The notes below the pieces were generated by a model. The model did not search any database. It was not told the DNA's origin and was given only the letters and a program-made list of their open reading frames with translations. From Crocinitomicaceae bacterium (lineage in GTDB: Bacteria; Bacteroidota; Bacteroidia; Flavobacteriales_D; Crocinitomicaceae), in NCBI GenBank assembly GCA_024639405.1, contig JAHEIL010000020.1, positions 1 through 64,000 of the forward strand: a DNA stretch of 64,000 nt, in the 5' to 3' direction. Of the stretch, positions 5,353 through 48,118 are shown piece by piece (the stretch's first letter is position 1; each line of letters opens with the position of its first letter). The translations under genes and the position numbers were made by a program.

Positions 5353-5868
5353 ATGAGCAGATTAGCCGCGCTTACGCACAAAATAACTGAACTTGAACAA
5401 GCCAAACGCCTTGTTGGAATTTGGCAAATGAAAGGACAAAAAGTTGTTTTTACCAACGGCTGTTTTGATATTTTACACAAAGGACATGTTGCATATCTAG
5501 CGAAAGCTGCAGCTTTAGGTGATCGTTTAGTTGTTGCTATTAATACCGATTCATCTGTACGCCAATTAGAAAAAGGTGCTAATCGTCCGATAAATTCTGA
5601 AGACGCAAGAGCTTTTGTATTAGCTGGTTTAGGTTTTGTCGACATGGTGCTTCTTTTTGATGAAAACACACCATTGACAGTTATTGAAGCTTTGCAACCA
5701 GACATACTTGCGAAAGGTGCTGACTACGATCCTTTAGAGAAAGATGCTACTTCTAAAAAATACATCGTTGGTTCAGATGTTATCCTCAAAAAAGGTGGAA
5801 CAGTCCATGCGATTGAATTTGAAGATGGATTTTCTACCACAGCAACCATCAGTAAAATAAATCAATAA
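5353..5868 (+). CDS. rfaE2: D-glycero-beta-D-manno-heptose 1-phosphate adenylyltransferase
   Basis: Transfers AMP to heptose-1-phosphate to make ADP-heptose for the LPS core. 171 residues, the stand-alone adenylyltransferase half of HldE. The nucleotidyltransferase motif GCFDILHKGH (residues 36-45) is intact, followed by VVAINTDSSVRQLEKG, ILAKGADY and GFSTTATISKI at the C terminus, all typical of RfaE domain II. The kinase domain (domain I) is absent here and should be encoded elsewhere. It follows panD by 10 bp, so it shares the pantothenate operon although the pathways differ. A GT9 heptosyltransferase-like gene at 21.5 kb could be a downstream user of ADP-heptose (inference). Confidence 0.93.
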   Translation: MSRLAALTHKITELEQAKRLVGIWQMKGQKVVFTNGCFDILHKGHVAYLAKAAALGDRLVVAINTDSSVRQLEKGANRPINSEDARAFVLAGLGFVDMVLLFDENTPLTVIEALQPDILAKGADYDPLEKDATSKKYIVGSDVILKKGGTVHAIEFEDGFSTTATISKINQ

Positions 5869-15052: not shown

Positions 15053-17518
15053 TTAGTGTTTCCCTTTTTCAGAGCAACAAGCTTTTTTCTCTCCTTTACA
15101 TTCTGATTTACCAATGAATTTACCATCAGCTCCAAAATGTGCTAAACACATTTCTTTTTCTTCTTTTGTACAACCTTTTTCGTCACACATTTTAGCGCAC
15201 TCTTCTTTTGTCATTTTAGCACACTCTGTCATATCACATTTACCAATCATTGTTTGACCAGCAGCATGTGGGTGACAAACTTTCATGTCTGCAGAACATT
15301 CCATTTTAGCAGGACATTCTTTTTTATCAGCTGAATGACCATTTCCTAAGATTGGAGCGATAACTAAACCAATTAAACATGTTAATTTAATTAAGATGTT
15401 CATTGAAGGACCAGAAGTGTCTTTAAATGGATCTCCAACTGTATCTCCAGTTACTGCAGCTTTGTGAGCGTCAGAACCTTTGTACGTCATTTCACCATTA
15501 ATTTCTACACCTGCTTCAAAAGATTTTTTAGCGTTATCCCAAGCACCACCAGCATTGTTTTGGAACACAGCCCATAAAACACCTGATACTGTAACACCCG
15601 CCATATAACCACCTAACATTTCTGCTATCAATTGGTTATTATCTCCGTATACTAATTTACCTAATAATACAATTGCAATAGGGAAACCAATCGTTAAGAT
15701 TCCTGGCAACATCATTTCACGTAATGCAGCTTTCGTAGAAATTTCAACACATTTACCGTATTCTGGTTTACCAGTTCCTTCCATAATTCCTGGAATTTCT
15801 TTGAACTGACGACGAACTTCATATACCATATCCATGGCTGCTTTACCAACTGAATTCATTGCTAATGCAGAGAATACAACTGGAATCATACCACCAACAA
15901 ATAACATCGCTAAAACTGGTGCTTTGAAGATGTTAATACCGTCAATACCTGTAAAAGTAACGTATGCAGCAAATAAAGCCAAAGATGTTAACGCTGCAGA
16001 AGCAATCGCAAAACCTTTACCTGTTGCAGCTGTTGTGTTACCAACTGAATCCAAAATATCTGTACGTGTACGAACTTCTTTAGGTAGCTCACTCATCTCA
16101 GCGATACCACCTGCATTATCAGAAATAGGTCCGAAAGCATCAATTGCTAATTGCATTGCCGTTGTAGCCATCATAGCTGAAGCAGCTAAAGCAACACCGT
16201 AAAAACCAGCTAAACCATAAGATGCCCAAATCGCAGCAGCAAATAACAAGACTGTTGGGAATGTTGAAATCATCCCAGTAGCTAAACCTGCAATTACATT
16301 AGTTCCTGCACCTGTTGAAGATTTTTGAACGATTTTCAAAACTGGCTTAGTTCCCAATCCAGTGTAGTATTCTGTTACAGATGAAATAACACCTCCTACA
16401 ACCAATCCAACGATTGTTGCATAAAATACTCGCATCGATGAAATATCTTTAATTCCTTCACCGAAGAAATTCATTTTCATTGTTGCAGGCAACATATAAT
16501 CTACTAATACATAACAAGAAATAGCAGTTAAAACGATAGAAACCCAGTTACCGATGTTTAAAGCACCTTGTACTTGTTTTTCTTTTGCTGAATCACTTTT
16601 AATTTTCACCAACATTGTTCCGATAATTGAAAATAAAATTCCAAAACCAGCAATCGCCATTGGTAATAAAATTGGTCCGATACCACCAAAACCTTCTTTG
16701 ACGATGTCACCACCCATATCTTTAATTACATAGTTTCCAAGAACCATCGCAGCTAAAACTGTTGCAACATACGAACCAAATAAATCGGCACCCATTCCTG
16801 CAACGTCACCTACGTTATCTCCTACGTTATCTGCAATTGTAGCAGGATTACGAGGATCATCTTCTGGAATTCCAGCTTCTACTTTACCAACTAAATCAGC
16901 ACCTACGTCTGCAGCTTTTGTATAAATACCACCACCAACACGTGCAAACAATGCAATCGATTCAGCACCTAAAGAGAATCCAGCTAATGTTTCAAGAACG
17001 ATTGTCATTTTATCTGTTCCATCAACACCCCAAACTCCTCCCATGAAGAATTGGAAGAAAATAATAAAGAAAGCTGTTAAACCTAAAACTGCTAAACCTG
17101 CAACACCTAATCCCATTACTGTTCCACCACCGAAAGAAACTTTCAATGCTTGTGGTAAACTAGTTCGAGCTGCTTGCGTTGTTCTAACATTTGTTTTGGT
17201 AGCGATTTTCATCCCCATGTTTCCTGCCAATGCAGAAAAAATAGCACCAAATACAAACGCAACAATAATTAATATGTGTGTAGTTGGTACAACAAATGAA
17301 ATACCTGCTAAAACAATACTTGCACCTACAACAAAAATTGCTAACAATCTATATTCTGCTTTTAAGAAAGCCAATGCTCCTTCATAAATGTAATCTGAAA
17401 TTTCTTTCATTTTACCATCTCCAGCGTCTTGCTTTAAAACCCAAGCACGCTTAGCCCACATGAAAAGTAGACCAATAATTGCCATAACAATTGGCACATA
17501 AATCATCATTGATTCCAT
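15053..17518 (-). CDS. hppA: Membrane-bound cation-pumping pyrophosphatase with a cysteine-rich C-terminal extension
   Basis: An integral membrane pyrophosphatase that couples PPi hydrolysis to Na+ and/or H+ export. 821 residues with about 16 hydrophobic helices. Signature motifs DVGADLVGKVE, PEDDPRNPATIADNVGDN and VGDVAGMGADLFGSY are intact. GNTTAATGKGFAI has Ala where K+-independent enzymes have Lys, so this is the K+-dependent class, whose members include Na+ pumps. After the last helix (SMNILIKLTCLIGLVIAP) there is an unusual hydrophilic tail of about 90 residues with 12 cysteines in patterns such as KKECPAKMECSADMKVCHPH, TECAKMTKEECAKMC and KKACCSEKGKH. In this family the C terminus is expected outside the cytoplasm, so the tail may be a periplasmic metal- or thiol-active module (inference). 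Monocistronic, with its own promoter and terminator. Confidence 0.96.
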   Translation of the reverse strand: MESMMIYVPIVMAIIGLLFMWAKRAWVLKQDAGDGKMKEISDYIYEGALAFLKAEYRLLAIFVVGASIVLAGISFVVPTTHILIIVAFVFGAIFSALAGNMGMKIATKTNVRTTQAARTSLPQALKVSFGGGTVMGLGVAGLAVLGLTAFFIIFFQFFMGGVWGVDGTDKMTIVLETLAGFSLGAESIALFARVGGGIYTKAADVGADLVGKVEAGIPEDDPRNPATIADNVGDNVGDVAGMGADLFGSYVATVLAAMVLGNYVIKDMGGDIVKEGFGGIGPILLPMAIAGFGILFSIIGTMLVKIKSDSAKEKQVQGALNIGNWVSIVLTAISCYVLVDYMLPATMKMNFFGEGIKDISSMRVFYATIVGLVVGGVISSVTEYYTGLGTKPVLKIVQKSSTGAGTNVIAGLATGMISTFPTVLLFAAAIWASYGLAGFYGVALAASAMMATTAMQLAIDAFGPISDNAGGIAEMSELPKEVRTRTDILDSVGNTTAATGKGFAIASAALTSLALFAAYVTFTGIDGINIFKAPVLAMLFVGGMIPVVFSALAMNSVGKAAMDMVYEVRRQFKEIPGIMEGTGKPEYGKCVEISTKAALREMMLPGILTIGFPIAIVLLGKLVYGDNNQLIAEMLGGYMAGVTVSGVLWAVFQNNAGGAWDNAKKSFEAGVEINGEMTYKGSDAHKAAVTGDTVGDPFKDTSGPSMNILIKLTCLIGLVIAPILGNGHSADKKECPAKMECSADMKVCHPHAAGQTMIGKCDMTECAKMTKEECAKMCDEKGCTKEEKEMCLAHFGADGKFIGKSECKGEKKACCSEKGKH

Positions 17519-17731: not shown

Positions 17732-18028
17732 TTAAATACTTGACTTTATTTTGTTTTTTAGTGTAGACAAATCCATCCCACCACTTTGTCGCCACACTAT
17801 CTCTCCTTTTTTGAATAAAACAAATGTGGGTACTCCTCTTACTTTAAATTTAGCAGCTACTTCTTGATTTTTGTCAACGTCAATTTTTAAAACACGAACT
17901 TGAGAACCCATTTCAGCTTTTAATTTATCTAAAACTGGGCTCATTGCTTGACAAGGTCCACACCATGTCGCAAAGAAATCTACTAATGTCGGTGTTTCTG
18001 ATTTTACGATGTCGCTAAATTTTCCCAT
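17732..18028 (-). CDS. trxA: Thioredoxin family protein
   Basis: A 98-residue cytoplasmic dithiol-disulfide oxidoreductase. The active site is FFATWCGPCQAMSP with Cys23 and Cys26, and the cis-proline loop is VRGVPTFVLFKKG. There is no signal peptide or transmembrane helix, so it is a soluble thioredoxin rather than an exported TlpA-like protein. It is slightly shorter than E. coli TrxA (about 108) but complete. It diverges from the LtaS-like gene, has a TACCTTTG box upstream, and is followed by its own stem-loop. Confidence 0.93.
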   Translation of the reverse strand: MGKFSDIVKSETPTLVDFFATWCGPCQAMSPVLDKLKAEMGSQVRVLKIDVDKNQEVAAKFKVRGVPTFVLFKKGEIVWRQSGGMDLSTLKNKIKSSI

Positions 18029-18145: not shown

Positions 18146-20020
18146 ATGCAAACAGTAAAAAATACGCTCATCACATCATTAAAATTTCTCATTTTTTGGG
18201 TGATTGTTTTTGATTTTGAACGGTTGATCTTTACGTTTCACAACTCGAACTCTATTGGGAAAATCAGTTTTTCAGAATGGCTGTATACCTTTCTTGCATC
18301 ATTGCGTCTAGACTTAGCAACAGGAGCATTATTAAGTATACTTCCACTTTTAATGTACGCAATCCATCAACTCGTTAATTCAGTTATAACAAAAAAATTA
18401 TTTTACATCATCTTTTTCATTGAAATAATAATTTGTGCTCTCATTCATGGTGGAGAAATCAATGCCTATACAGAATGGAACCATAAATTGACAACACGCG
18501 TTTTTACCCATTTATTGAATCCAGGTGAAGTTGTAAGAACCGCTGATTATAGCATGACCATCTGGTTTGTAATTTATACATTACTTGAATCTTTTTTAGG
18601 ATATAAATTAATGCGTTTAATCTTTAAGGATATTCAACCAATTTCTACTACTAAAAAATGGTTGAATATTCCATTAATCATTTTTACATTTTCTCTTTTT
18701 AGTGGAATATTTGTGTTGATTGGTCGGGGTGGAACCCAACAAATCCCTATAAATATTGATTCAGCATACTTTTCAAAAAATTACATTTCCAACGATTTAT
18801 CTGTTAATTCAGTTTACTTTTTTGCAAAAAGCTTCTCCTTGTATCTAAAAAGTGAAAACAAAATCAATTTCCCAATTATTGATGAGAAAACAAGCAAAAA
18901 AGAATTAAAGGATTTATTTACGTATCCACTTGAACATTCGAATTATGTGTTCTCAGAAAAGCGTCCAAATTTTGTATTTATCGTAATGGAAAGTTGGACG
19001 GCGAATGCGATTGGTTGTATTTCAAAAAACAAAAGTGCAACTCCCAATTTTGATGCATTAACAAAAAATGGAATTCTGTTTTCTAATATTTATGCCACTG
19101 GGGGTACTTCTGAAATTGGAAACGCGAGTATTTTTAGTGGCTACCCAGCTCTACCCGAAATTTCTATTACGATGCAGCCCGATAAACATCGTAAAATTCC
19201 TTCGTTGAATCAAGAACTTAAACAATGGAACTATACGAGTCATTATTTATTTAGTGGTGATTTAAAGTATGGAAATATCGGTGGGTTTTTTACAGATCAT
19301 GGATTCGATACAGTTGAAGATGAAGTAGATTTTCCAAAAAATTTACCCCATGGAAAATTAAACTATTATGATTCTGACCTTTATAAGTTTTTTCTAAAAA
19401 AAATAAACGCAACAAAAGCACCATTTTTACAATGCGCATTTACTGGTAGCACGCATTCTCCATACGATTATCCTAAAAAAGGAAAGGAAAAATGGACAGG
19501 AAGTGAAGCGGATTTCATGAATTCAATGGTTTATGCTGATCAATGCTTGGCAAAATTTATGCAAGATTGTAAAAAACAAGCGTGGTATAAAAACACCGTT
19601 TTTGTGTTGGTTGCTGATCATGGTCATGCCTCACCTTCATTGGAAAATCCAAATTTAGGCGGTTATTTCCATATTCCATTGTTGTTTTTTGGTGAACCTA
19701 TTAAACAAGAAATGCGAGGAAAAGTAATCCCAACATTGGGGTCACAAGCAGATATTGTTCGCACCTTACTGTATCAATTGGGTGGCGATTATCAAAAATT
19801 TGAATGGGCAAAAGACTTGTTAAATCCAGCTTGTCCTCAGTTTGCATTACATACAATTAACCGAGGTTATGGATGGATCACACCAAAAGGAAATTTCTCC
19901 TATCACATGGATGCAAAAAATTATCCTGATTTAACCTTTTCAAAAGCACAATTGAAACAAGAAGAAAAACGTTGTCATTCTTATATGTCATTGATTTATA
20001 ATGCTTATAAAAAATTATAA
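18146..20020 (+). CDS. LtaS-like membrane phosphotransferase / sulfatase-fold protein
   Basis: An inner-membrane protein of 624 residues with about five N-terminal transmembrane helices, followed by an extracytoplasmic alkaline-phosphatase-fold domain. It resembles the LTA synthase family, which transfers phosphoglycerol or related head groups from phospholipids. Metal and nucleophile motifs are visible: FVFIVMESW (Glu near residue 281), ATGGTSEIGN with the probable nucleophile Thr, FTGSTHSPYDYP, and VADHGHASP near the C terminus. Gram-negative Bacteroidota lack lipoteichoic acid, so the acceptor is more likely a lipid, glycan or LPS part. It is coupled to the GT22-like gene (TAA-T-ATG), which in turn overlaps a GT9 gene. 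That suggests a glycolipid-decorating cassette. Confidence 0.87.
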   Translation: MQTVKNTLITSLKFLIFWVIVFDFERLIFTFHNSNSIGKISFSEWLYTFLASLRLDLATGALLSILPLLMYAIHQLVNSVITKKLFYIIFFIEIIICALIHGGEINAYTEWNHKLTTRVFTHLLNPGEVVRTADYSMTIWFVIYTLLESFLGYKLMRLIFKDIQPISTTKKWLNIPLIIFTFSLFSGIFVLIGRGGTQQIPINIDSAYFSKNYISNDLSVNSVYFFAKSFSLYLKSENKINFPIIDEKTSKKELKDLFTYPLEHSNYVFSEKRPNFVFIVMESWTANAIGCISKNKSATPNFDALTKNGILFSNIYATGGTSEIGNASIFSGYPALPEISITMQPDKHRKIPSLNQELKQWNYTSHYLFSGDLKYGNIGGFFTDHGFDTVEDEVDFPKNLPHGKLNYYDSDLYKFFLKKINATKAPFLQCAFTGSTHSPYDYPKKGKEKWTGSEADFMNSMVYADQCLAKFMQDCKKQAWYKNTVFVLVADHGHASPSLENPNLGGYFHIPLLFFGEPIKQEMRGKVIPTLGSQADIVRTLLYQLGGDYQKFEWAKDLLNPACPQFALHTINRGYGWITPKGNFSYHMDAKNYPDLTFSKAQLKQEEKRCHSYMSLIYNAYKKL

Positions 20021-20021
20021 T

Positions 20022-21515
20022 ATGTTTAAAAAGTTAGATTTAGAGAATTACAAAGTCATCTTATTTGCAGCATTGATTGCACGATTAATTGCCGTAGTTT
20101 TTTCTCAAGGTTACGGAATGCACGATGATCATTTTCTAATTATTGAATCGTCAAGCTCGTGGGCAAATGGAACTGACTACAATGATTGGTTGCCTTGGTC
20201 TAAAGGAAATGATGGTCACCCAGAAGGACATAGTTTTTCTTATGTAGGACTCAATTATTGCTACTTTGCAATTATGAAATTGATTGGATTCTCTGATCCG
20301 AAAGTGTTAATGCTATTCAATCGATTGATTCATGCGCTTGCCTCATTAGTAGTTGTTTGGTACGGAATGAAAATCGCTGAAAAAATTAGTACACGAAAAA
20401 ATGCTGTTACAATTGGATGGATCTTGGCTTTGTTGTGGGTAATGCCCAACCTTTCTGTTCGGAATTTAGTTGAAATTGCTGCAGTTCCTTTTTTAGTATT
20501 TGGAACGTGGATGCTTGTTAAAGGCTCAAAATCATCTTATTTATTAATAGGTGGGCTATTTATTGGAATGGCCGTTTCGTTTCGCTATCAAATAGGTGTT
20601 TTTGCGATTGGACTTGCAATTGTTTATTTGTTCAAAAAAGAATTAAAATCCTTTTTCCTGTTTTCATTGGGAACATGTATTACCTTTATTTTAACACAAG
20701 GTTTGGTAGATGGATTAATATGGGGCTATCCGTTTGCAGAATTGATGGCATACGTAACATACAACATGAAAGAAGGTACGCAATACTTACCCAATTCAAA
20801 TTATGGCATGTATTTTTATGTGTTGGCTGGATGTCTTCTTTTTCCATTAGGAATTTTAATGCTGATTGGATTTTTTAAAGCTGCTAGAAAATTTCCTTTA
20901 ATTTTTACTCCAACAATAGTATTTATATTGTTTCACACTTTTTACCCAAATAGACAAGAACGTTTTGTTTTAAGTATTTTGCCTTACTTTATTATTCTTG
21001 GTGTTATTGGAATTTCAAAATTCAAAGAAGGTAGTTTCTTTAAACGAATTGAAAAATTCTCCTATAGAGCTTTTTGGGTACTTAACATCCCATTATTGAT
21101 AGTTGCTTCAACAATGTATTCGAAACAATCAAGGGTTGAAAGCATGTATTTTTTGTCGAAGAACAAAACTGAAACTAAATTCATTTTAGCTGAAGGTAGT
21201 GCCACAGGAAATCTATCAATGCTCCCTAAATTTTATGCAAACAATTGGAGTTTAAACATATTTGAAATCACAGATATCAATCAATTAAAATCATATAATG
21301 TTCCTCCTATATTTGATTTTATCTATTTTTTTGATGAGAAAATGCTAGCAGAAAGGATCGAATTTTACAAAAAAATGTATCCTCACATGCAGCTCGCTAA
21401 AAAATGTAACCCAAGTTTTATGGATGCGCTTTTACACAAAATAAATCCAAGAAATTCAAATGAATACATAGAAATTTGGAAAACAAATTATCAGTTTAAT
21501 AAAGTAAATAAATGA
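20022..21515 (+). CDS. GT-C glycosyltransferase, GT22/mannosyltransferase-like
   Basis: A polytopic membrane protein of 497 residues with about ten hydrophobic helices. The segment GYGMHDDHF near residue 35 carries the acidic pair expected in the first periplasmic loop of GT-C enzymes. The motif FHTFYPNRQERFVLSILPYF around residue 305 closely resembles the H-x-x-Y-P-x-x-x-E-R-F signature of the ALG9/PIG-B (GT22) mannosyltransferases, which use a polyprenyl-linked sugar. I start at 20022 because that ATG follows the previous stop by one base; the frame could begin at 20001. Donor and acceptor are unknown. It overlaps the GT9 gene by 4 bp, so these gene products probably act on the same glycan. 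Confidence 0.82.
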   Translation: MFKKLDLENYKVILFAALIARLIAVVFSQGYGMHDDHFLIIESSSSWANGTDYNDWLPWSKGNDGHPEGHSFSYVGLNYCYFAIMKLIGFSDPKVLMLFNRLIHALASLVVVWYGMKIAEKISTRKNAVTIGWILALLWVMPNLSVRNLVEIAAVPFLVFGTWMLVKGSKSSYLLIGGLFIGMAVSFRYQIGVFAIGLAIVYLFKKELKSFFLFSLGTCITFILTQGLVDGLIWGYPFAELMAYVTYNMKEGTQYLPNSNYGMYFYVLAGCLLFPLGILMLIGFFKAARKFPLIFTPTIVFILFHTFYPNRQERFVLSILPYFIILGVIGISKFKEGSFFKRIEKFSYRAFWVLNIPLLIVASTMYSKQSRVESMYFLSKNKTETKFILAEGSATGNLSMLPKFYANNWSLNIFEITDINQLKSYNVPPIFDFIYFFDEKMLAERIEFYKKMYPHMQLAKKCNPSFMDALLHKINPRNSNEYIEIWKTNYQFNKVNK

Positions 21516-22504
21516 AAATATTAATCGTCCGTTTTAGTTCTATTGGAGATGTTGTTTTAACATCACCAGTTATTCGTGCGCTTAAAAAACAAATTCCTAC
21601 TTGTGAAATTCATTACATTACAAAAGAAAACAATCGAGAAATTCTTGCTGATAATCCATACATAGATCAACTTTTTACCATTCAAAAAACAATTACTGAA
21701 TGTCTCGACAAATTAAAAGCGCAGCACTACGATTATCTAATTGATTTACATAAAAACACGCGAACACTTTCCTTAAAAAAACAATTGGATGTTCCCTACT
21801 TAACATTTCCAAAATTAAACATTGAAAAGTGGCTTTTGGTAAATTTTAAATGGAATAGAATGCCCAATATACATATTGTTGATCGCTATTTCAAAGCAGT
21901 TGAATCACTTGGTGTGAAAAATGATCAATTGCCTTGTGACTATTTTATACCAGAAAAAGAACAAGTTCAAACAGAAAAATTATTGAACGTTCATCCAAAA
22001 TCATATTTAACGATCGCAATTGGTGCGCAATTCGCAACAAAACGAATGAATTTTGAATTGTTGGAAAAAATCATTGCTCCTTTAACATTTCCGATTGTAC
22101 TTGTTGGTGGACCAACTGATGTCAATTTTGCGCACAAACTCATTCAACGGTTTCCTGAAAAACAACTGATTTCAGCATGTGGAAATTATACATTAAGCCA
22201 ATCAGCTAGTATTGTTCAGCAAGCCAAAGCTATTCTAACAAATGATACAGGATTAATGCACATTGCATCTTGTTTTGAAATTGCAACAATTAGTGTGTGG
22301 GGAAATACTGTTCCAGCTTTAGGTATGTATCCATATTTTCCTCGAATTCAAAACGCATATAGCATCCACGAAGTGGCTAATTTAAGATGTAGACCCTGTT
22401 CAAAAATAGGATTTCAAAAATGTCCTAAAAAACATTTTTCGTGCATGAATGATCAAAATGTAACTGAAATTTTAGCTTCAATTGAAGAAAAAATGAATGG
22501 TTAA
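21512..22504 (+). CDS. Glycosyltransferase family 9 (heptosyltransferase-like)
   Basis: 330 residues; cytoplasmic GT-B enzyme of the ADP-heptose:LPS heptosyltransferase family. It opens with MKILIVRFSSIGDVVLTSPV, the classic GT9 N terminus. ILTNDTGLMHIASCFEIATISVWG in the C-terminal domain holds the DTG-x-x-H nucleotide-sugar-binding motif. A CRPCSKIGFQKCPKKHFSC segment near the C terminus has four cysteines, a feature of some GT9 proteins. The start codon overlaps the preceding stop (ATGA). The stop shares TTAA with the convergent thioesterase gene. ADP-heptose could come from rfaE2 at 5.4 kb (inference). Confidence 0.92.
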   Translation: MKILIVRFSSIGDVVLTSPVIRALKKQIPTCEIHYITKENNREILADNPYIDQLFTIQKTITECLDKLKAQHYDYLIDLHKNTRTLSLKKQLDVPYLTFPKLNIEKWLLVNFKWNRMPNIHIVDRYFKAVESLGVKNDQLPCDYFIPEKEQVQTEKLLNVHPKSYLTIAIGAQFATKRMNFELLEKIIAPLTFPIVLVGGPTDVNFAHKLIQRFPEKQLISACGNYTLSQSASIVQQAKAILTNDTGLMHIASCFEIATISVWGNTVPALGMYPYFPRIQNAYSIHEVANLRCRPCSKIGFQKCPKKHFSCMNDQNVTEILASIEEKMNG

Positions 22505-23019
22505 TCCTCTAAAAATAATTTCTTCAACTCTGTTGCATCACTCGCTTTCATTCTTCCAGCTAAAATCAATGCCAACTGTTTTCTTCGCAATGCACCTTCG
22601 TAACGCATGATCTCTTCTTCTGTTTCTGGCACTAATTCAGGAACTTGAATCGGTCCACCATTTTGATCCACTGCAACAAACGTATAAATCGCTTCATTGC
22701 ATTTTTCACGACTACCAGTAACCGGATTTTCAACAAATACATCTACAAAAACTTCCATAGAAGAATTGAAAGCACGAGATACTTTTGCTTCTAAAGTGAC
22801 AATAGATGCATGATTAATTGGCTTTTGAAAAGAAACATTATTCACAGAAGCTGTAACGACAACACGTTTTGAATGACGTTGAGCAGAAACACTCGCAATT
22901 ACATCCATCCATGCCAATAATTGTCCCCCAAATAAATTTCCGAGCGTATTCGTATCGTTTGGCAATACAATCTCTGTCGTGATTGCTAAGGTTTGTTGTG
23001 CGGTGTTACTCTTTGTCAT
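22501..23019 (-). CDS. Acyl-CoA thioesterase, hotdog fold (YciA/BACH-like)
   Basis: Hydrolyses acyl-CoA thioesters; cytoplasmic. 172 residues with one hotdog domain. The family segment LPNDTNTLGNLFGGQLLAW carries the Asn/Asp and GG motif of YciA-type enzymes. NNVSFQKPINHASIVTLEAKV follows, then VFVENPVTGSREKCNEAIYTFVA. It stands alone on the minus strand and overlaps the stop of the GT9 gene by 4 bp. Chain-length preference cannot be read from sequence. Confidence 0.93.
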   Translation of the reverse strand: MTKSNTAQQTLAITTEIVLPNDTNTLGNLFGGQLLAWMDVIASVSAQRHSKRVVVTASVNNVSFQKPINHASIVTLEAKVSRAFNSSMEVFVDVFVENPVTGSREKCNEAIYTFVAVDQNGGPIQVPELVPETEEEIMRYEGALRRKQLALILAGRMKASDATELKKLFLED

Positions 23020-43366: not shown

Positions 43367-44758
43367 ATGAAAAATAGTCAATTATACATTCAAACTAATA
43401 AAGAGAAATTTTTAAACGAATTAATCGATTTATTAAAAATACCTTCTGTTTCTGCTGATCCAACTTTTTCAACGGCTGTCAACCAAACAGCTGAATTAGT
43501 TGCAAATCATTTGAAAATACTAGGTGTTGATAAGGTGGAAGTATGTGAAACAGCTGGCTACCCAATTGTATATGGTGAAAAAATAATAGACAAAAATTTA
43601 CCAACAATCTTAGTTTATGGGCATTACGATGTTCAACCAGCAGACCCTATTGAATTATGGACCAACCCAGCATTCGAACCTGTAGTAAAAGCAACAGAAA
43701 TTCATCCTAATGGTGCAATCTTTGCACGTGGTGCGTGTGATGACAAAGGACAAATGTTCATGCATGTAAAAGCTGTTGAAGCGATGTTGGCAAGCAATGA
43801 ATTACCGTGTAACGTAAAATTCATGATTGAAGGTGAAGAAGAAGTTGGAAGTGAAAATCTTGGGATTTTTGTAAAAAACAACGTTGAAAAATTAAAAGCG
43901 GATGTCATCTTAGTTTCAGACACAGGAATGTTGGCAAACGATGTTCCATCAATTACAACAGGCTTAAGAGGTTTGAGTTATGTGGAAGTTGAAGTAACTG
44001 GACCTAACCGAGATTTGCATTCAGGATTATATGGAGGATGTGTGGCAAATCCAATCAATACATTGGCGAAAATGATTGCTTCGTTGCACGATGAAAACAA
44101 CAAAATCACCATCCCTGGCTTCTACGATAAAGTAGTAGATCTTTCTGACGAAGAGCGTACTGAAATGGCAAAAGCACCTTTTTCAAATGAAAAGTACTGC
44201 AAAGCTCTTGATATCAATGAAGTTATGGGTGAAAATGGCTATTCAACAATGGAACGTGGTTCAATTCGTCCAACCTTGGATGTCAACGGAATTTGGGGTG
44301 GATATACAGGTGAAGGCGCCAAAACTGTAATTGCTTCTAAAGCATTTGCGAAAATCTCTATGCGATTAGTACCTGACCAAGATCCTGTTGAGATTACTGA
44401 ATTGTTTAAAAATCATTTCGAGAAAATTGCACCAAATAGTGTTAAAGTAACTGTAAAACCTCATCATGGTGGAGAAGCAGCTGTTACTCCGATTGATTCA
44501 ATCGGTTACAAAGCTGCTGCCTTAGCTTATGAACAAACATTCGGGAAAAAACCGATACCTGTTAGAAGTGGTGGAAGTATTCCTATTGTTGCAATGTTTG
44601 AAAAAGTACTTGGTTTGAAAACAATATTAATGGGGTTTGGCTTGGATAGTGATGCTATTCATTCTCCTAATGAACATTTTGGCTTATTTAATTTCTACAA
44701 AGGAATTGAGACGATCCCTTATTTCTATCATCACTTTACTGAATTATCAAAAAAATGA
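43367..44758 (+). CDS. M20 family dipeptidase
   Basis: 463-residue zinc dipeptidase of the CNDP-like M20 group. Metal and catalytic motifs: VYGHYDVQPADP (His, Asp), FARGACDDKGQ (bridging Asp), EGEEEVGSENL (catalytic Glu plus Glu ligand), and the C-terminal DAIHSPNEHFGL (His). The lid domain includes GPNRDLHSGLYGG with the substrate-carboxylate His. No signal peptide, so cytoplasmic. A GTG five codons upstream (43352) is an alternative start; I prefer the ATG. Overlaps the LEA14-like gene by 4 bp. Confidence 0.93.
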   Translation: MKNSQLYIQTNKEKFLNELIDLLKIPSVSADPTFSTAVNQTAELVANHLKILGVDKVEVCETAGYPIVYGEKIIDKNLPTILVYGHYDVQPADPIELWTNPAFEPVVKATEIHPNGAIFARGACDDKGQMFMHVKAVEAMLASNELPCNVKFMIEGEEEVGSENLGIFVKNNVEKLKADVILVSDTGMLANDVPSITTGLRGLSYVEVEVTGPNRDLHSGLYGGCVANPINTLAKMIASLHDENNKITIPGFYDKVVDLSDEERTEMAKAPFSNEKYCKALDINEVMGENGYSTMERGSIRPTLDVNGIWGGYTGEGAKTVIASKAFAKISMRLVPDQDPVEITELFKNHFEKIAPNSVKVTVKPHHGGEAAVTPIDSIGYKAAALAYEQTFGKKPIPVRSGGSIPIVAMFEKVLGLKTILMGFGLDSDAIHSPNEHFGLFNFYKGIETIPYFYHHFTELSKK

Positions 44759-45255
44759 GGTTAAGTTTTATTAGTGTAATTGTTTCACTTCTTGTATTAA
44801 TTTCAAGTTGCAGTTCTTTCAAAGAACCAATCATAAAAGGAAGTGATGATTTTAAACTCACACAATTTGAAGGGAAAAAAATATCATTTTCTTTAGCCTT
44901 AGTGATTGAAAATAACAATTGGTATGCATTGAAAATAAAACCAAGTAACGTTGATCTTTACCTTGAAGACAAATTAATTGGTAAGCTGCATCTATTGGAA
45001 AAAGTATCAATTCCATCTAAGAAAACAAGTGAAGTAGTCGTTCCTGCTCAAATTGAATTAGCCGATGGCGCAATGATTTCATTGTTTAAAATCATAACTA
45101 AAGATGAAGTAGCATTACGTTTAAATGGAAAGGTTAAAGGAGGTGTTTTGTTCGTTTATAAAAATTTTCACGTCGATGAAAAATGGAATGTACCAACAAA
45201 TTTCTTAAAATTGGATAAATTAAAATTAGGTGGGATTTTTGGACTGGAAAAATAA
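44755..45255 (+). CDS. LEA14-like lipoprotein
   Basis: 166-residue exported lipoprotein. Signal peptide with lipobox LISSC (Cys19). The body alternates beta strands typical of the LEA type 2/WHy fold (FSLALVIENNNWYALKIKPS, VDLYLEDKLIGKLHL, VALRLNGKVKGGVLF). Proteins of this class bind or stabilise partners; no enzymatic residues are seen. It overlaps the dipeptidase stop (ATGA) and is itself overlapped by 26 bp by the following gene. Confidence 0.78.
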   Translation: MRLSFISVIVSLLVLISSCSSFKEPIIKGSDDFKLTQFEGKKISFSLALVIENNNWYALKIKPSNVDLYLEDKLIGKLHLLEKVSIPSKKTSEVVVPAQIELADGAMISLFKIITKDEVALRLNGKVKGGVLFVYKNFHVDEKWNVPTNFLKLDKLKLGGIFGLEK

Positions 45256-45826
45256 ATTACCCGATTTTGAGTTAACGAAAGGAGAAATCTCCTCTCTTTT
45301 GTTGCAAAAAGGGATTCATACATTTCACGAAGCCTGTGTTTATGTTTCTGAACTTCCATATCGCAGAACTAAAAACAGAGATGATTTAACTGCTATTATA
45401 AATGAAAATGGTGGGACATGTTCTTCTAAACATGGCTTATTAGGTCAAATTTGCGTTGAAAATGGGTGTGAAAAAATCGAATTGATTGCTGGTGTATTTT
45501 TAATGAGTGGCGAAACACATCCATCCATTGAAACTATATTAGAGGCGAATAATTTATCCATATTACCTGAAATGCATTGTTACTTAAGGTTCAAGGGTGA
45601 ACGTTTTGATTTTACAAGTCCACATGCAAATTTTGAAAAAATTGCTTCCAAAATCGTTCGTGAACAATGGATTGAACCGCATCAAGTTGGCGATTGGAAA
45701 GTGAAAATTCACCAAAGTTATTTGGAAAGCTGGCTCGAACGGAATCCTCAAATTCACTATACGCTAGAACAATTGTGGGAAATCCGAGAAAAATGTATTG
45801 AAGAATTTAGTGCCTCAGGATTCTAA
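45230..45826 (+). CDS. Hypothetical protein, possible transglutaminase-like cysteine protein
   Basis: 198 residues starting at a GTG inside the previous gene; the exact start is uncertain (a TTG lies three codons further in). I do not recognise a named family. The segment NENGGTCSSKHGLL has a cysteine (Cys64) in the setting seen in transglutaminase-like folds. His116 in EMHCYLRFKG and Asp127 in ERFDFTSPH have the order and spacing of a Cys-His-Asp triad. No signal peptide. Overlaps the convergent murF-alr gene by 12 bp at the stops. The catalytic assignment is inference. Confidence 0.65.
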   Translation: MGFLDWKNKLPDFELTKGEISSLLLQKGIHTFHEACVYVSELPYRRTKNRDDLTAIINENGGTCSSKHGLLGQICVENGCEKIELIAGVFLMSGETHPSIETILEANNLSILPEMHCYLRFKGERFDFTSPHANFEKIASKIVREQWIEPHQVGDWKVKIHQSYLESWLERNPQIHYTLEQLWEIREKCIEEFSASGF

Positions 45827-48118
45827 GTAAATTTTATGCACACGTTTCGAGATGCTCGTCATTACTTCATAAGGTATGGTATTCATCTTTTCAGCTAATT
45901 GTTGTAAACTTTGATTTTTACCAATAATTTCAACTGCTGTTCCTTCGTTTACGTCCAACTTACCTAAATCAATCATAATCATATCCATGCAGATTCGACC
46001 GACAATCGGACAACTTATATTATTGACAAAAACACACCCAACTCCATTGCTTAACGTTCTTTTTAAACCGTCAGCATAACCAATAGGGACAATGCCAATT
46101 TTCATATCATTCGGGGCGATAAATGTACGGCTGTAACCTACACTCTCACCCTTTTTCACTTTCTTCACTTGTGAAAGAGCGCTTTTCCATTGTAAAACAG
46201 GAGCTAATTTTCGCTGAGTTGCAGGATCAGAAGTAACACCAAACATGCCTATTCCAATGCGTACCATTTCAAATTGTGCCGAAGGAAAATGAGCAATTCC
46301 CTCAGAATTCAATGCATGTCGGTCAAATTGATATGGAATTGCTTGACTTAATAACTGAACAGCTTTTGAAAATTGTTGTAATTGGTATTCCGTAAATCGT
46401 TTATCTCTTCGATTATCAGCATCCGCTAAATGGGTATAAACAGATTGAATTTTAAGCTCAGGCTGTGCATTTAACACTTCACAAACGGCAGGAATCTCCT
46501 CCAAATCAAAGCCCAAACGTTTCATTCCAGTGTCAATTTTTAAATGTACTGGAAACCCAGATTTACCATGAAAAATTAATTCTTTTACAAAAGTATCGAG
46601 CTGATGAAAAGAATAAATTGCAGGCTCTAATTGATATTGAATACAATCTTCAAAACCTTCAGTTTCAGCATTCATAACTAAAATGGGCGTTTCAATTCCT
46701 TGTTTTCTTAATTCAACTCCTTCATCTGCATAGGCAACACCTAAATAATCGACGCCATTCAATGCTAGGAATTGAGCAATTTTCTCTACTCCAGAACCAT
46801 ACGATTGCGCTTTTACCATCGCCAACATTTTTGTTGATGGCCGTAACTTTGATTTAAATACTTGAATGTTATTTTTCAAGGCATTTAAATCAACCTCAAG
46901 AACCGTCTTATGATTTTTTAATCTGAATTGTCGCGCAATGCGTTGCATGTCCGACTTACGTGTCCCTTTAATTAAAATAATCGCGTCGTGAAACGAAGAT
47001 TGAACAACTTCTGTTGGCTTTAAGATAAAAAACTCATCTGGTTCAAATGATTCAATCAATTGCTGAATCTGCGAACGCTTGTATTCGTTCTCTTCGTCAA
47101 GTCCTATAATTACGATTCGTTTCTTGTTTTGTGCTTTTTGAACTTGAAATTCTAATGAATAAGTTAAGGCATCAATGTCAAGATTATAAGTGTCATTGAT
47201 AATTGTAGTATTATTTATTCCTTCAAAAATTTCCATGCGCATCGCCAACTGTGGAAGAGAAGCAGCGCGCTCTTTTAACGTTATAATATCTTTCAAAAAT
47301 AGCTTTGCAACGGCAAGTGCTAATAATCCATTTGTTTGATTGACTTTATCTGTAAACGGCAACCATTTAGCTTCTAGACTCATGAAATCAAGCGGTATTT
47401 GCGAGCCATTTGTAGCCTTTAAAACTTCCTTTGATAATGGAATATTATCTGGAAAAATTGATGTAAGAATTGAATCAAATAAGGTTAATTTTTCTTGTAA
47501 TAAAGCTTCAGAAGAGGTGAAATTTTCTAAATGTGAACTTCCAAAAGAAGTCATTACACCAATTGTAGGTTGAACAATTTCTTTTAAGCGTTGCATTTCT
47601 CCAGGATGAGAAATACCGACTTCAATAATTGCAAGATCACATTGTTCATTTAATTCCAAAAGAGATAAGGCAACACCCAATTGTGAATTATAACTTTTGG
47701 GGCTTCTAATAATTCTAAATGTTGGACTTAATAAATGATAAATCCATTCTTTTACTGTAGTTTTTCCTGCGCTTCCGGTAATTGCAATGATTGGATACGC
47801 AAATTTAGCACGATGAAATTTAGCTAATTCTTGTAAAGCAAATAAGGTATCTTTTACTACACAAAAATGGGCGGTTGGAAATTCATATTTCCACTTTTCT
47901 TCAGAAACAACAAAATGTCTTACCCCTTTTTCAAAGGCAGCTTGAATAAAAGAATGGCCATTTCTGTATTCACCGATTAAAGCAAAAAACAAGGTGTTTT
48001 TACCCTCTACGATTTTACGAGAATCATATGCAACTTGCGTAATCATTTCAGAGGAAATTGAAGCAGAATCGCTCTTGATTACCTTATTAATTTCAGAATA
48101 TGTGTAAGCTAATTTCAA
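45815..48118 (-). CDS. murF-alr: Bifunctional UDP-MurNAc-tripeptide:D-Ala-D-Ala ligase / alanine racemase
   Basis: A fusion typical of Bacteroidota that both makes D-alanine and adds D-Ala-D-Ala to the muropeptide precursor. The MurF half has AYDSRKI near the N terminus, the P-loop TGSAGKTTVKEW, NSQLGVALSL, IIEVGISHPGEM, SFGSSHLENF and INDTYNLDIDAL. The Alr half starts near EVDLNALKNN, with the PLP lysine in MVKAQSYGSG (about residue 436), then KIDTGMKRLGF, VGYSRTF and GRICMDMIMIDL. I start at a TTG (48118) that overlaps the tdk stop as TTGA; a GTG at 48139 would add seven residues. The ligase part is short (about 405 residues against 452 in E. coli MurF), mainly in the central domain. Confidence 0.9.
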   Translation of the reverse strand: MKLAYTYSEINKVIKSDSASISSEMITQVAYDSRKIVEGKNTLFFALIGEYRNGHSFIQAAFEKGVRHFVVSEEKWKYEFPTAHFCVVKDTLFALQELAKFHRAKFAYPIIAITGSAGKTTVKEWIYHLLSPTFRIIRSPKSYNSQLGVALSLLELNEQCDLAIIEVGISHPGEMQRLKEIVQPTIGVMTSFGSSHLENFTSSEALLQEKLTLFDSILTSIFPDNIPLSKEVLKATNGSQIPLDFMSLEAKWLPFTDKVNQTNGLLALAVAKLFLKDIITLKERAASLPQLAMRMEIFEGINNTTIINDTYNLDIDALTYSLEFQVQKAQNKKRIVIIGLDEENEYKRSQIQQLIESFEPDEFFILKPTEVVQSSFHDAIILIKGTRKSDMQRIARQFRLKNHKTVLEVDLNALKNNIQVFKSKLRPSTKMLAMVKAQSYGSGVEKIAQFLALNGVDYLGVAYADEGVELRKQGIETPILVMNAETEGFEDCIQYQLEPAIYSFHQLDTFVKELIFHGKSGFPVHLKIDTGMKRLGFDLEEIPAVCEVLNAQPELKIQSVYTHLADADNRRDKRFTEYQLQQFSKAVQLLSQAIPYQFDRHALNSEGIAHFPSAQFEMVRIGIGMFGVTSDPATQRKLAPVLQWKSALSQVKKVKKGESVGYSRTFIAPNDMKIGIVPIGYADGLKRTLSNGVGCVFVNNISCPIVGRICMDMIMIDLGKLDVNEGTAVEIIGKNQSLQQLAEKMNTIPYEVMTSISKRVHKIYLES

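Follow-up and report, generated by a model that had tools for sequence, protein, structure and literature searches.

What do three closely linked genes, encoding an LtaS-like phosphotransferase and two glycosyltransferases of families 22 (GT22) and 9 (GT9), do in the envelope of a Gram-negative bacterium? The genes lie at positions 18146-22504 of a stretch of 64,000 nucleotides (hereafter the window) from contig JAHEIL010000020.1 of the Crocinitomicaceae bacterium assembly GCA_024639405.1. The source genome has been assembled as a draft of 2.63 Mb, spread over 52 contigs and 98% complete. We favor reading the trio as an operon for an envelope glycan, with the core of lipopolysaccharide (LPS) as its most likely target, and we hold this view tentatively, with a probability of about 0.42. 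The alternatives weighed below overlap, and their odds do not sum to one.

Briefly, the GT9 enzyme would first move heptose from ADP-heptose onto the LPS core at the cytoplasmic face of the membrane, which we consider probable. After export, the GT22 enzyme would add a hexose (probably mannose), taken from a polyprenyl-phosphate donor, at the periplasmic face; for this step the type of enzyme is assigned with high confidence. The LtaS-like enzyme would then move a phospho-head-group, in the periplasm, onto the glycan or a neighboring lipid, by way of a metal-bound threonine intermediate and with release of diacylglycerol. The data bear directly on the structure and order of the genes, on their families, predicted folds, and conserved residues, and on which pathway genes are present; the substrates, the acceptor, the sidedness at the membrane, and co-transcription are inferred. 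The parts of the trio are mostly ordinary and of known kinds. The point of interest is the LtaS-fold enzyme, found here in bacteria apparently without phosphatidylglycerol (PG).

The three genes and the GT22 protein

The three open reading frames (ORFs) were found on the forward strand where the original prediction had placed them, and both junctions, TAA-T-ATG and ATGA, read as it had claimed (Table 1). An alternative in-frame ATG at 20001 would lengthen the GT22 protein to 504 residues. None of the frames is interrupted and each has orthologues, which rules out chance ORFs. Because both flanking genes are on the reverse strand, the forward run consists of these three genes only. The spacing of the genes suggests that they may be co-transcribed. 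Compared with shuffled sequences, neither promoter-like sites (24 found, 26.0 expected) nor terminator-like sites (2 found, 2.9 expected) were enriched, and a repeat scan gave nothing usable. A horizontally acquired island was considered and rejected: the GC content of the trio (0.31-0.34) is near that of its surroundings (0.32-0.37), which gives no sign of recent foreign origin.

The predicted families were upheld by Pfam. Gene 1 matched PF00884, the sulfatase/alkaline-phosphatase-superfamily domain (1.2e-35). The GT22 gene matched PF03901 (1.5e-12; 47.9 bits against a gathering score of 23.8) and more weakly PF13231 (PMT_2; 7.1e-6), and the GT9 gene matched PF01075 (5.2e-18; 65.7 bits against a gathering score of 22).

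The AlphaFold model of the GT22 protein had a predicted local distance difference test score (pLDDT) of 74 and a predicted template-modeling score (pTM) of 0.77, with pLDDT below 50 at residues 30-37. The model aligned over nearly its full length to chicken ALG12 (Z 25.0, root-mean-square deviation (rmsd) 4.2, 445 residues) and also to ALG9 (Z 21.5), ArnT, and other GT-C enzymes. ALG12 and ALG9 are dolichyl-phosphate-mannose mannosyltransferases of family GT22 and share with the window protein the Pfam family, the full-length fold, and an acidic pair in the first loop, whereas identity is 12-15% and the window protein is bacterial. This pair, D35-D36, is invariant in 20 sequences, and we assume that it has the functional role of the first-loop acidic pair of GT22 enzymes. 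Because the predicted fold aligns to ALG12 and GT-C enzymes and D35-D36 is invariant, the protein is most likely a polyprenyl-phosphate-sugar-dependent transferase that faces the periplasm. The polyprenyl-sugar-dependent mannosyltransferase of the original prediction thus fits in its type of enzyme, with mannose only the probable sugar.

The GT9 protein and the heptose pathway

The case for the LPS core begins with the GT9 protein. The E. coli LPS heptosyltransferases WaaC and WaaF belong to the same Pfam family, and in an alignment with them the window protein retains the catalytic Asp (D13-equivalent), the K192-equivalent, and DTGLMH, which fits the signature D(T/S)(G/A)XXH. It has no Glu at the position aligned with WaaC Glu222. 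PMC3559599 gives the signature, Asp13, and Lys192 for heptosyltransferases and reports only D13 and H266 as common to all the enzymes compared. Genes of the LPS core sugar pathways were also present. gmhA scored above its cut-off in the source genome and in 114 of the 149 genomes of our search set, KdsB (Kdo) did so in the source genome, and an HldE-like gene in the window could supply the donor sugar. The signature residues, gmhA, and the HldE-like gene strengthen the heptosyltransferase reading. The HldE-like ORF has no kinase domain and directly follows the panC (PF02569) and panD (PF02261) genes. kdsB matched at identical coordinates on two contigs of the source genome (C20:1230-1931 and C7:1230-1931), perhaps a duplicated or doubly assembled segment.

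We compared the occurrence of GT9 orthologues (best E <1e-45) and strong HldE-II matches (>130 bits) over the 149 genomes. Both were found in 117 genomes, GT9 only in 2, HldE-II only in 9, and neither in 21, with a Fisher value of 1.6e-16. All sampled genomes of families f3 and f13, and no others, make up the 21 with neither. The Fisher value therefore overstates the evidence, and the joint absence may go back to only one or two independent losses.

Several further observations weigh against an LPS-core heptosyltransferase and its partnership with the LtaS-like enzyme. Unlike WaaC and WaaF, the GT9 protein stays below all the NCBIfam heptosyltransferase equivalog cut-offs listed (type I, II or III; 87.6 bits for a cut-off of 185.3, 79.3 for 134.6, and 78.8 for 170.2), and the HldE domain is itself just under its cut-off. 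The nine genomes with HldE-II and no GT9 orthologue are G015, G018, G023, G045, G067, G097, G101, G129, and G131; the contigs of G015 and G018 end before GT9, and G023 has a partial GT9, which was scored as present in the survey of gene order below and as lacking in this count. Two genomes (G019 and G108) have GT9 and no HldE-II match, and four (G117, G126, G130, and G141) have gmhA just below its cut-off together with no GT9 orthologue. The LtaS-like enzyme is tied to LPS by its gene neighborhood only, and among 90 genomes of its family (f1) it was seen beside GT9 only in genera g1, g10, and g18.

A second neighborhood concerns the LtaS-like family. Genus g14 was sampled with three genomes (G057:C51, G071:C41, and G038:C12), and in each of them gmhA lies 72-86 bp (match coordinates) upstream of the LtaS-like paralogue. 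This links the LtaS-like enzyme family once more to the heptose pathway.

The LtaS-like enzyme and its probable lipid donor

The model of the LtaS-like protein (pLDDT 77, pTM 0.72) has five long N-terminal helices and a C-terminal domain. Read from the predicted secondary structure, the helices would be transmembrane and the domain periplasmic. LtaS likewise has five transmembrane helices. The best match of the domain, in both structure (Z 40.3, rmsd 3.3, 370 residues) and sequence (1.6e-37), was VP1736 of Vibrio parahaemolyticus (PDB 3lxq), an "uncharacterized protein" of the alkaline-phosphatase superfamily, although identity over the 370 aligned residues is 22%. No paper on VP1736 or 3LXQ was found in a search of open-licence papers. 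The next structural matches were LtaS and LtaP of Listeria, Bacillus, and Staphylococcus (Z 35.8-37.0), followed by YejM (Z ~30). An LtaS-like enzyme in a Gram-negative bacterium, which had been singled out at first, is not itself unusual, because OpgB and YejM of E. coli are related and the nearest solved structure is from Vibrio.

Across 27 sequences, residues E282, T321-S322, H437, and D491-H492 do not vary. The position of T321 was assigned from the motif, since the ungapped profile alignment seems to slip there by about 3 residues. The Glu, Thr, and Asp-His correspond to what we take to be the catalytic metal-site residues of LtaS. A type I sulfatase was rejected. The formylglycine motif of these enzymes is (C/S)-x-P-S-x-R, and the site here reads TSEIGNAS, with no Cys and no Arg.

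LtaS, the Gram-positive lipoteichoic acid (LTA) synthase, and OpgB, the E. coli phosphoglycerol transferase I, take glycerophosphate from PG. The window protein could be a true glycerophosphotransferase of this type that uses PG and makes a glycerol-phosphate-decorated glycan or an LTA-like polymer. Its fold and invariant Glu, Thr-Ser, and Asp-His match those of LtaS and the primase LtaP, and the family profile scored OpgB highest of three E. coli proteins (OpgB 48.9 bits, YejM 22.8, and EptA 7.0). We nevertheless regard a PG-dependent enzyme as improbable. The pocket His and Arg of LtaP, which presumably bind glycerol phosphate in LtaS and LtaP, correspond in the profile alignment to F369 and I378, neither of which varies in the 27 sequences, in a model whose pocket loop is of low confidence (pLDDT <50 at 372-378). 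The protein scored 30 bits against the NCBIfam LtaS family NF053595 (cut-off 970) and likewise fell far short of the curated OpgB families (NF009027, 45 against 572; NF003000, 24.9 against 574); its identity to OpgB is 22% over 210 residues.

The search for a PG route points the same way. The single CDP-alcohol phosphatidyltransferase (PF01066) found in the source genome is PssA (TIGR00473; 110.6 bits, cut-off 107). In profile searches, pgsA (TIGR00560) was above its cut-off in none of the 149 genomes, versus 6 of 14 control genomes. Some points count against reading this as true absence. Weak pgsA matches occurred in 130 of the 149 genomes, the one in the source genome being PssA. A few relatives (e.g. 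G083, G044, and G107) have another weak match besides, which spans the full range with about 200 residues and may be a divergent synthase. One genome (G013) has an 88-residue pgsA fragment at a contig end (86 bits). The searches were made with profiles in drafts, the source genome being 98% complete, which leaves room for a divergent synthase or for a gene in the missing 2%. With no PG route found and the pocket residues replaced, the enzyme is probably not a PG-dependent LTA synthase. The original prediction had proposed assembly and head-group decoration of an unrecognized glycolipid or LPS core. An envelope role remains plausible and the LPS core is the favored part. Since the searches turned up no phosphatidylglycerol-phosphate synthase, assembly of an LTA-like glycolipid is unlikely.

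Because no route to PG was found, phosphatidylethanolamine (PE) is the likeliest donor, which would make phosphoethanolamine the transferred group; we put the chances of this at about even. Such transfer has a precedent in Bacteroidota: EptA of Capnocytophaga canimorsus (PMC4730577), a lipid A phosphoethanolamine transferase, acts on an envelope glycolipid as we propose here. The window family profile scored EptA low, as given above for the E. coli protein rather than the Capnocytophaga one, which is still compatible with shared chemistry.

The acceptor might also be something other than LPS. The LtaS-like enzyme, and GT22 with it, could decorate the general protein O-glycan of Bacteroidota, for example by adding a phospho-group once the glycan is periplasmic. 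The O-glycan of P. gingivalis bears glycerol phosphate, and its authors inferred a late addition (PMC8729774). A 2025 review (PMC12871550) treats as open whether such modifications are already on the sugar donors or follow assembly of the glycan. A late step would suit periplasmic enzymes. The linkage to a heptosyltransferase-like GT9 favors LPS instead, and glycerol phosphate requires a donor that the source genome seems to lack. We consider decoration of the O-glycan unlikely.

The source genome has a second LtaS-like gene, 27% identical to the window protein, which overlaps a gene for a YegS/DgkB-type lipid kinase. The pair recurred in 19 of 20 further loci that we chose from the paralogue matches, including loci of family f4; in the exception (G046) the kinase is elsewhere. 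Recycling of diacylglycerol by such a kinase would suit a head-group transferase irrespective of the head group. The kinase scored slightly below the cut-off of NCBIfam TIGR00147 (116.2 versus 118.65) and above that of Pfam. A sample of the phylum speaks against a general coupling. Of its 198 genomes, 42 had a paralogue-type match (E to 1e-20) and 150 had a kinase match, and the two were adjacent in at least 3 of the 42 among the matches listed (G000, G249, and G169).

This pair raises the possibility that the LtaS-like enzyme is a lipid head-group exchanger, moving phosphoethanolamine (or phosphoglycerol) from a phospholipid to a ceramide or amino-acid lipid, with the diacylglycerol recycled by the kinase coupled to the paralogue. 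P. gingivalis has phosphoethanolamine- and phosphoglycerol-dihydroceramide as well as a phosphoglycerol dipeptide lipid (PMC10757044), and the overlap in the source genome and the 19 chosen loci also speak for an exchanger. Such a role leaves the glycosyltransferase neighbors of the window gene unexplained, the kinase adjoins the paralogue and not the window gene, and adjacency in the phylum is rare among the matches listed. We judge it quite unlikely.

A broader proposal would join these observations with the preferred role of the trio at the LPS core, and we offer it as a doubtful one. The LtaS/OpgB-fold enzymes of Crocinitomicaceae and related Flavobacteriales, which have no detectable PG synthase, may have switched their donor to PE, or to a ceramide or amino-lipid counterpart. 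One copy would work with LPS-core sugar enzymes, as in the window, and the second beside a YegS/DgkB-type kinase completing the diacylglycerol cycle, giving an LTA-like lipid-consumption cycle without LTA in a Gram-negative bacterium. If an LtaS-fold enzyme works without PG, the label "LtaS-like" should cease to imply glycerophosphate transfer in these Bacteroidota, and there would be named candidates for the missing class of enzyme that adds phospho-head-groups to LPS, protein O-glycans, or ceramides. The coupling of the paralogue to a DgkB-like kinase also bears on the DgkB homologue BT4322 of B. thetaiotaomicron, the lipid substrate of which is given as undetermined in PMC12280919. Among the matches listed in a search of the open-licence literature, we found no description of the trio or of a characterized LtaS-like enzyme of Bacteroidota.

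Gene order among relatives

We surveyed gene order with the best matches in the 90 genomes of family f1. Genes were called adjacent when on the same contig and strand and <2000 bp apart (<600 bp for LtaS-GT9). The survey leaves out weak second GT22 matches (G052, G044, and G079), the second segment wherever a match was split, one small GT22 fragment (contig C15 of G001), LtaS matches near 25-30% identity (the paralogue), and genomes outside the family. The LtaS-like gene was present in 64 genomes, GT22 in 49, GT9 in 86, and all three in 40. The trio stood together in 16 of these 40, within two genera: 12 of the 26 genomes of the source genus and all 4 of genus g10. Among the 16, the trio of G014 is split over two contigs and that of G034 has an extra gene between GT22 and GT9. 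No adjacency was seen in 21 of the 40, a count in which draft contig ends may conceal some cases (e.g. G032 and G052). G081, which is assembled as a single contig, has the three genes >600 kb from one another. A conserved functional trio as a general rule was rejected on these counts, and the scattering of the genes in relatives, which the original prediction had named as its refutation, is what the survey found for the trio as a unit. GT22 is not a fixed member either. Coupled LtaS-GT9 pairs without it occur in 7 of the 26 genomes of the source genus and in two of the four of g18, which makes it dispensable. What the survey shows is an arrangement of local extent, whose middle gene can be missing, and not a conserved system.

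This distribution raises the possibility that the three are functionally unrelated neighbors, brought together by insertion next to an older GT9-thioesterase locus and transcribed jointly while yielding no common product. The 21 genomes without adjacency and the coupled LtaS-GT9 pairs that have no GT22 speak for it. So does the absence, in the fetched loci (some read by eye only), of shared pathway-suggesting neighbors around scattered LtaS or GT22 copies; the neighbors that were Pfam-scanned were housekeeping genes (RlmN-type, Mur ligase/alanine racemase, peptidyl-prolyl isomerase, and asparagine synthase). All three are envelope enzymes, however, and the order LtaS-GT22-GT9 recurs in two genera and in public loci from metagenome-assembled genomes (MAGs), mostly with <50 bp between genes (the extra gene of G034 apart). 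In addition, a PMT_2-family membrane protein (cluster c64) directly follows GT22 in two genomes of different genera, G034 (L060:3558-4979) and G048 (L090); it scored 36.9 bits versus 26.1 in Pfam and had no match in NCBIfam. We consider functionally unrelated neighbors rather unlikely.

At 23 public loci found with the LtaS-like protein, the next gene was GT22 in 16, GT9 in 3, and neither in 4, some of these 4 being near contig ends. Close relatives of gene 1 are encoded in public records of MAGs whose titles name Crocinitomicaceae, Flavobacteriales, Fluviicola, or similar taxa. Seven loci (L035, L042, L044, L046, L047, L052, and L053) come from MAGs titled Chitinophaga pinensis, Actinomyces viscosus, or Chryseobacterium gleum, which appear to be mislabeled; their LtaS-like orthologues are 53-67% identical.

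Many loci fetched from the order have GT9 next to a convergent 4HBT gene. At one locus with an ancestral-looking order (L108, from genome G061) a thioredoxin-like gene, GT9, a 178-residue ORF, and 4HBT follow one another, with the LtaS-like gene and GT22 absent from the locus; a search of the genome gave no match anywhere for either protein. Because this arrangement exists without them, GT9 appears to be the old resident that the other two joined later. This suggests that GT9 is an old, near-universal member and that the LtaS-like gene, then GT22, were accessory additions. In a tree of 27 LtaS-like proteins, in which several deep nodes have low support, members without GT22 were nested among members with the trio (G021 with G005, and L054 with G012), suggesting that GT22 may have been lost from the cassette repeatedly.

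The flanking genes and the other features are listed in Table 1. Outside the trio, a membrane H+ pyrophosphatase (PF03030, residues 14-720) is encoded at window positions 15053-17518 and has an additional C-terminal tail, Cys/Lys-rich and about 100 residues long.

Table 1 Features of the trio locus, its flanks, and the paralogue locus (window coordinates unless a locus is named).
Feature	Position	Strand	Details
Gene 1, LtaS/OpgB-fold phosphotransferase	18146..20020	+	624 aa; Pfam, predicted fold, invariant residues
Gene 2, GT22 / ALG9-ALG12-like GT-C membrane glycosyltransferase	20022..21515	+	497 aa; Pfam, predicted fold
Gene 3, GT9 heptosyltransferase-like enzyme	21512..22504	+	330 aa; Pfam, signature residues
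TAA-T-ATG junction, genes 1/2	20018..20024	+	Stop TAA 20018-20020, T, ATG at 20022 (1-bp gap)
ATGA overlap, genes 2/3	21512..21515	+	-4-bp junction
Thioredoxin-like gene	17732..18028	-	Upstream neighbor, divergent from the trio; label is our reading
4HBT (YciA-like) thioesterase	22501..23019	-	Pfam; convergent with GT9
Stand-alone HldE C-terminal (ADP-heptose adenylyltransferase) domain	5353..5868	+	177.9 bits versus cut-off 181.5; possible donor-sugar partner of GT9
LtaS-like paralogue and lipid kinase	L110:8246-11016 (G000:C16 about 44245-47015)		Kinase: PF00781, PF19279; the two genes overlap

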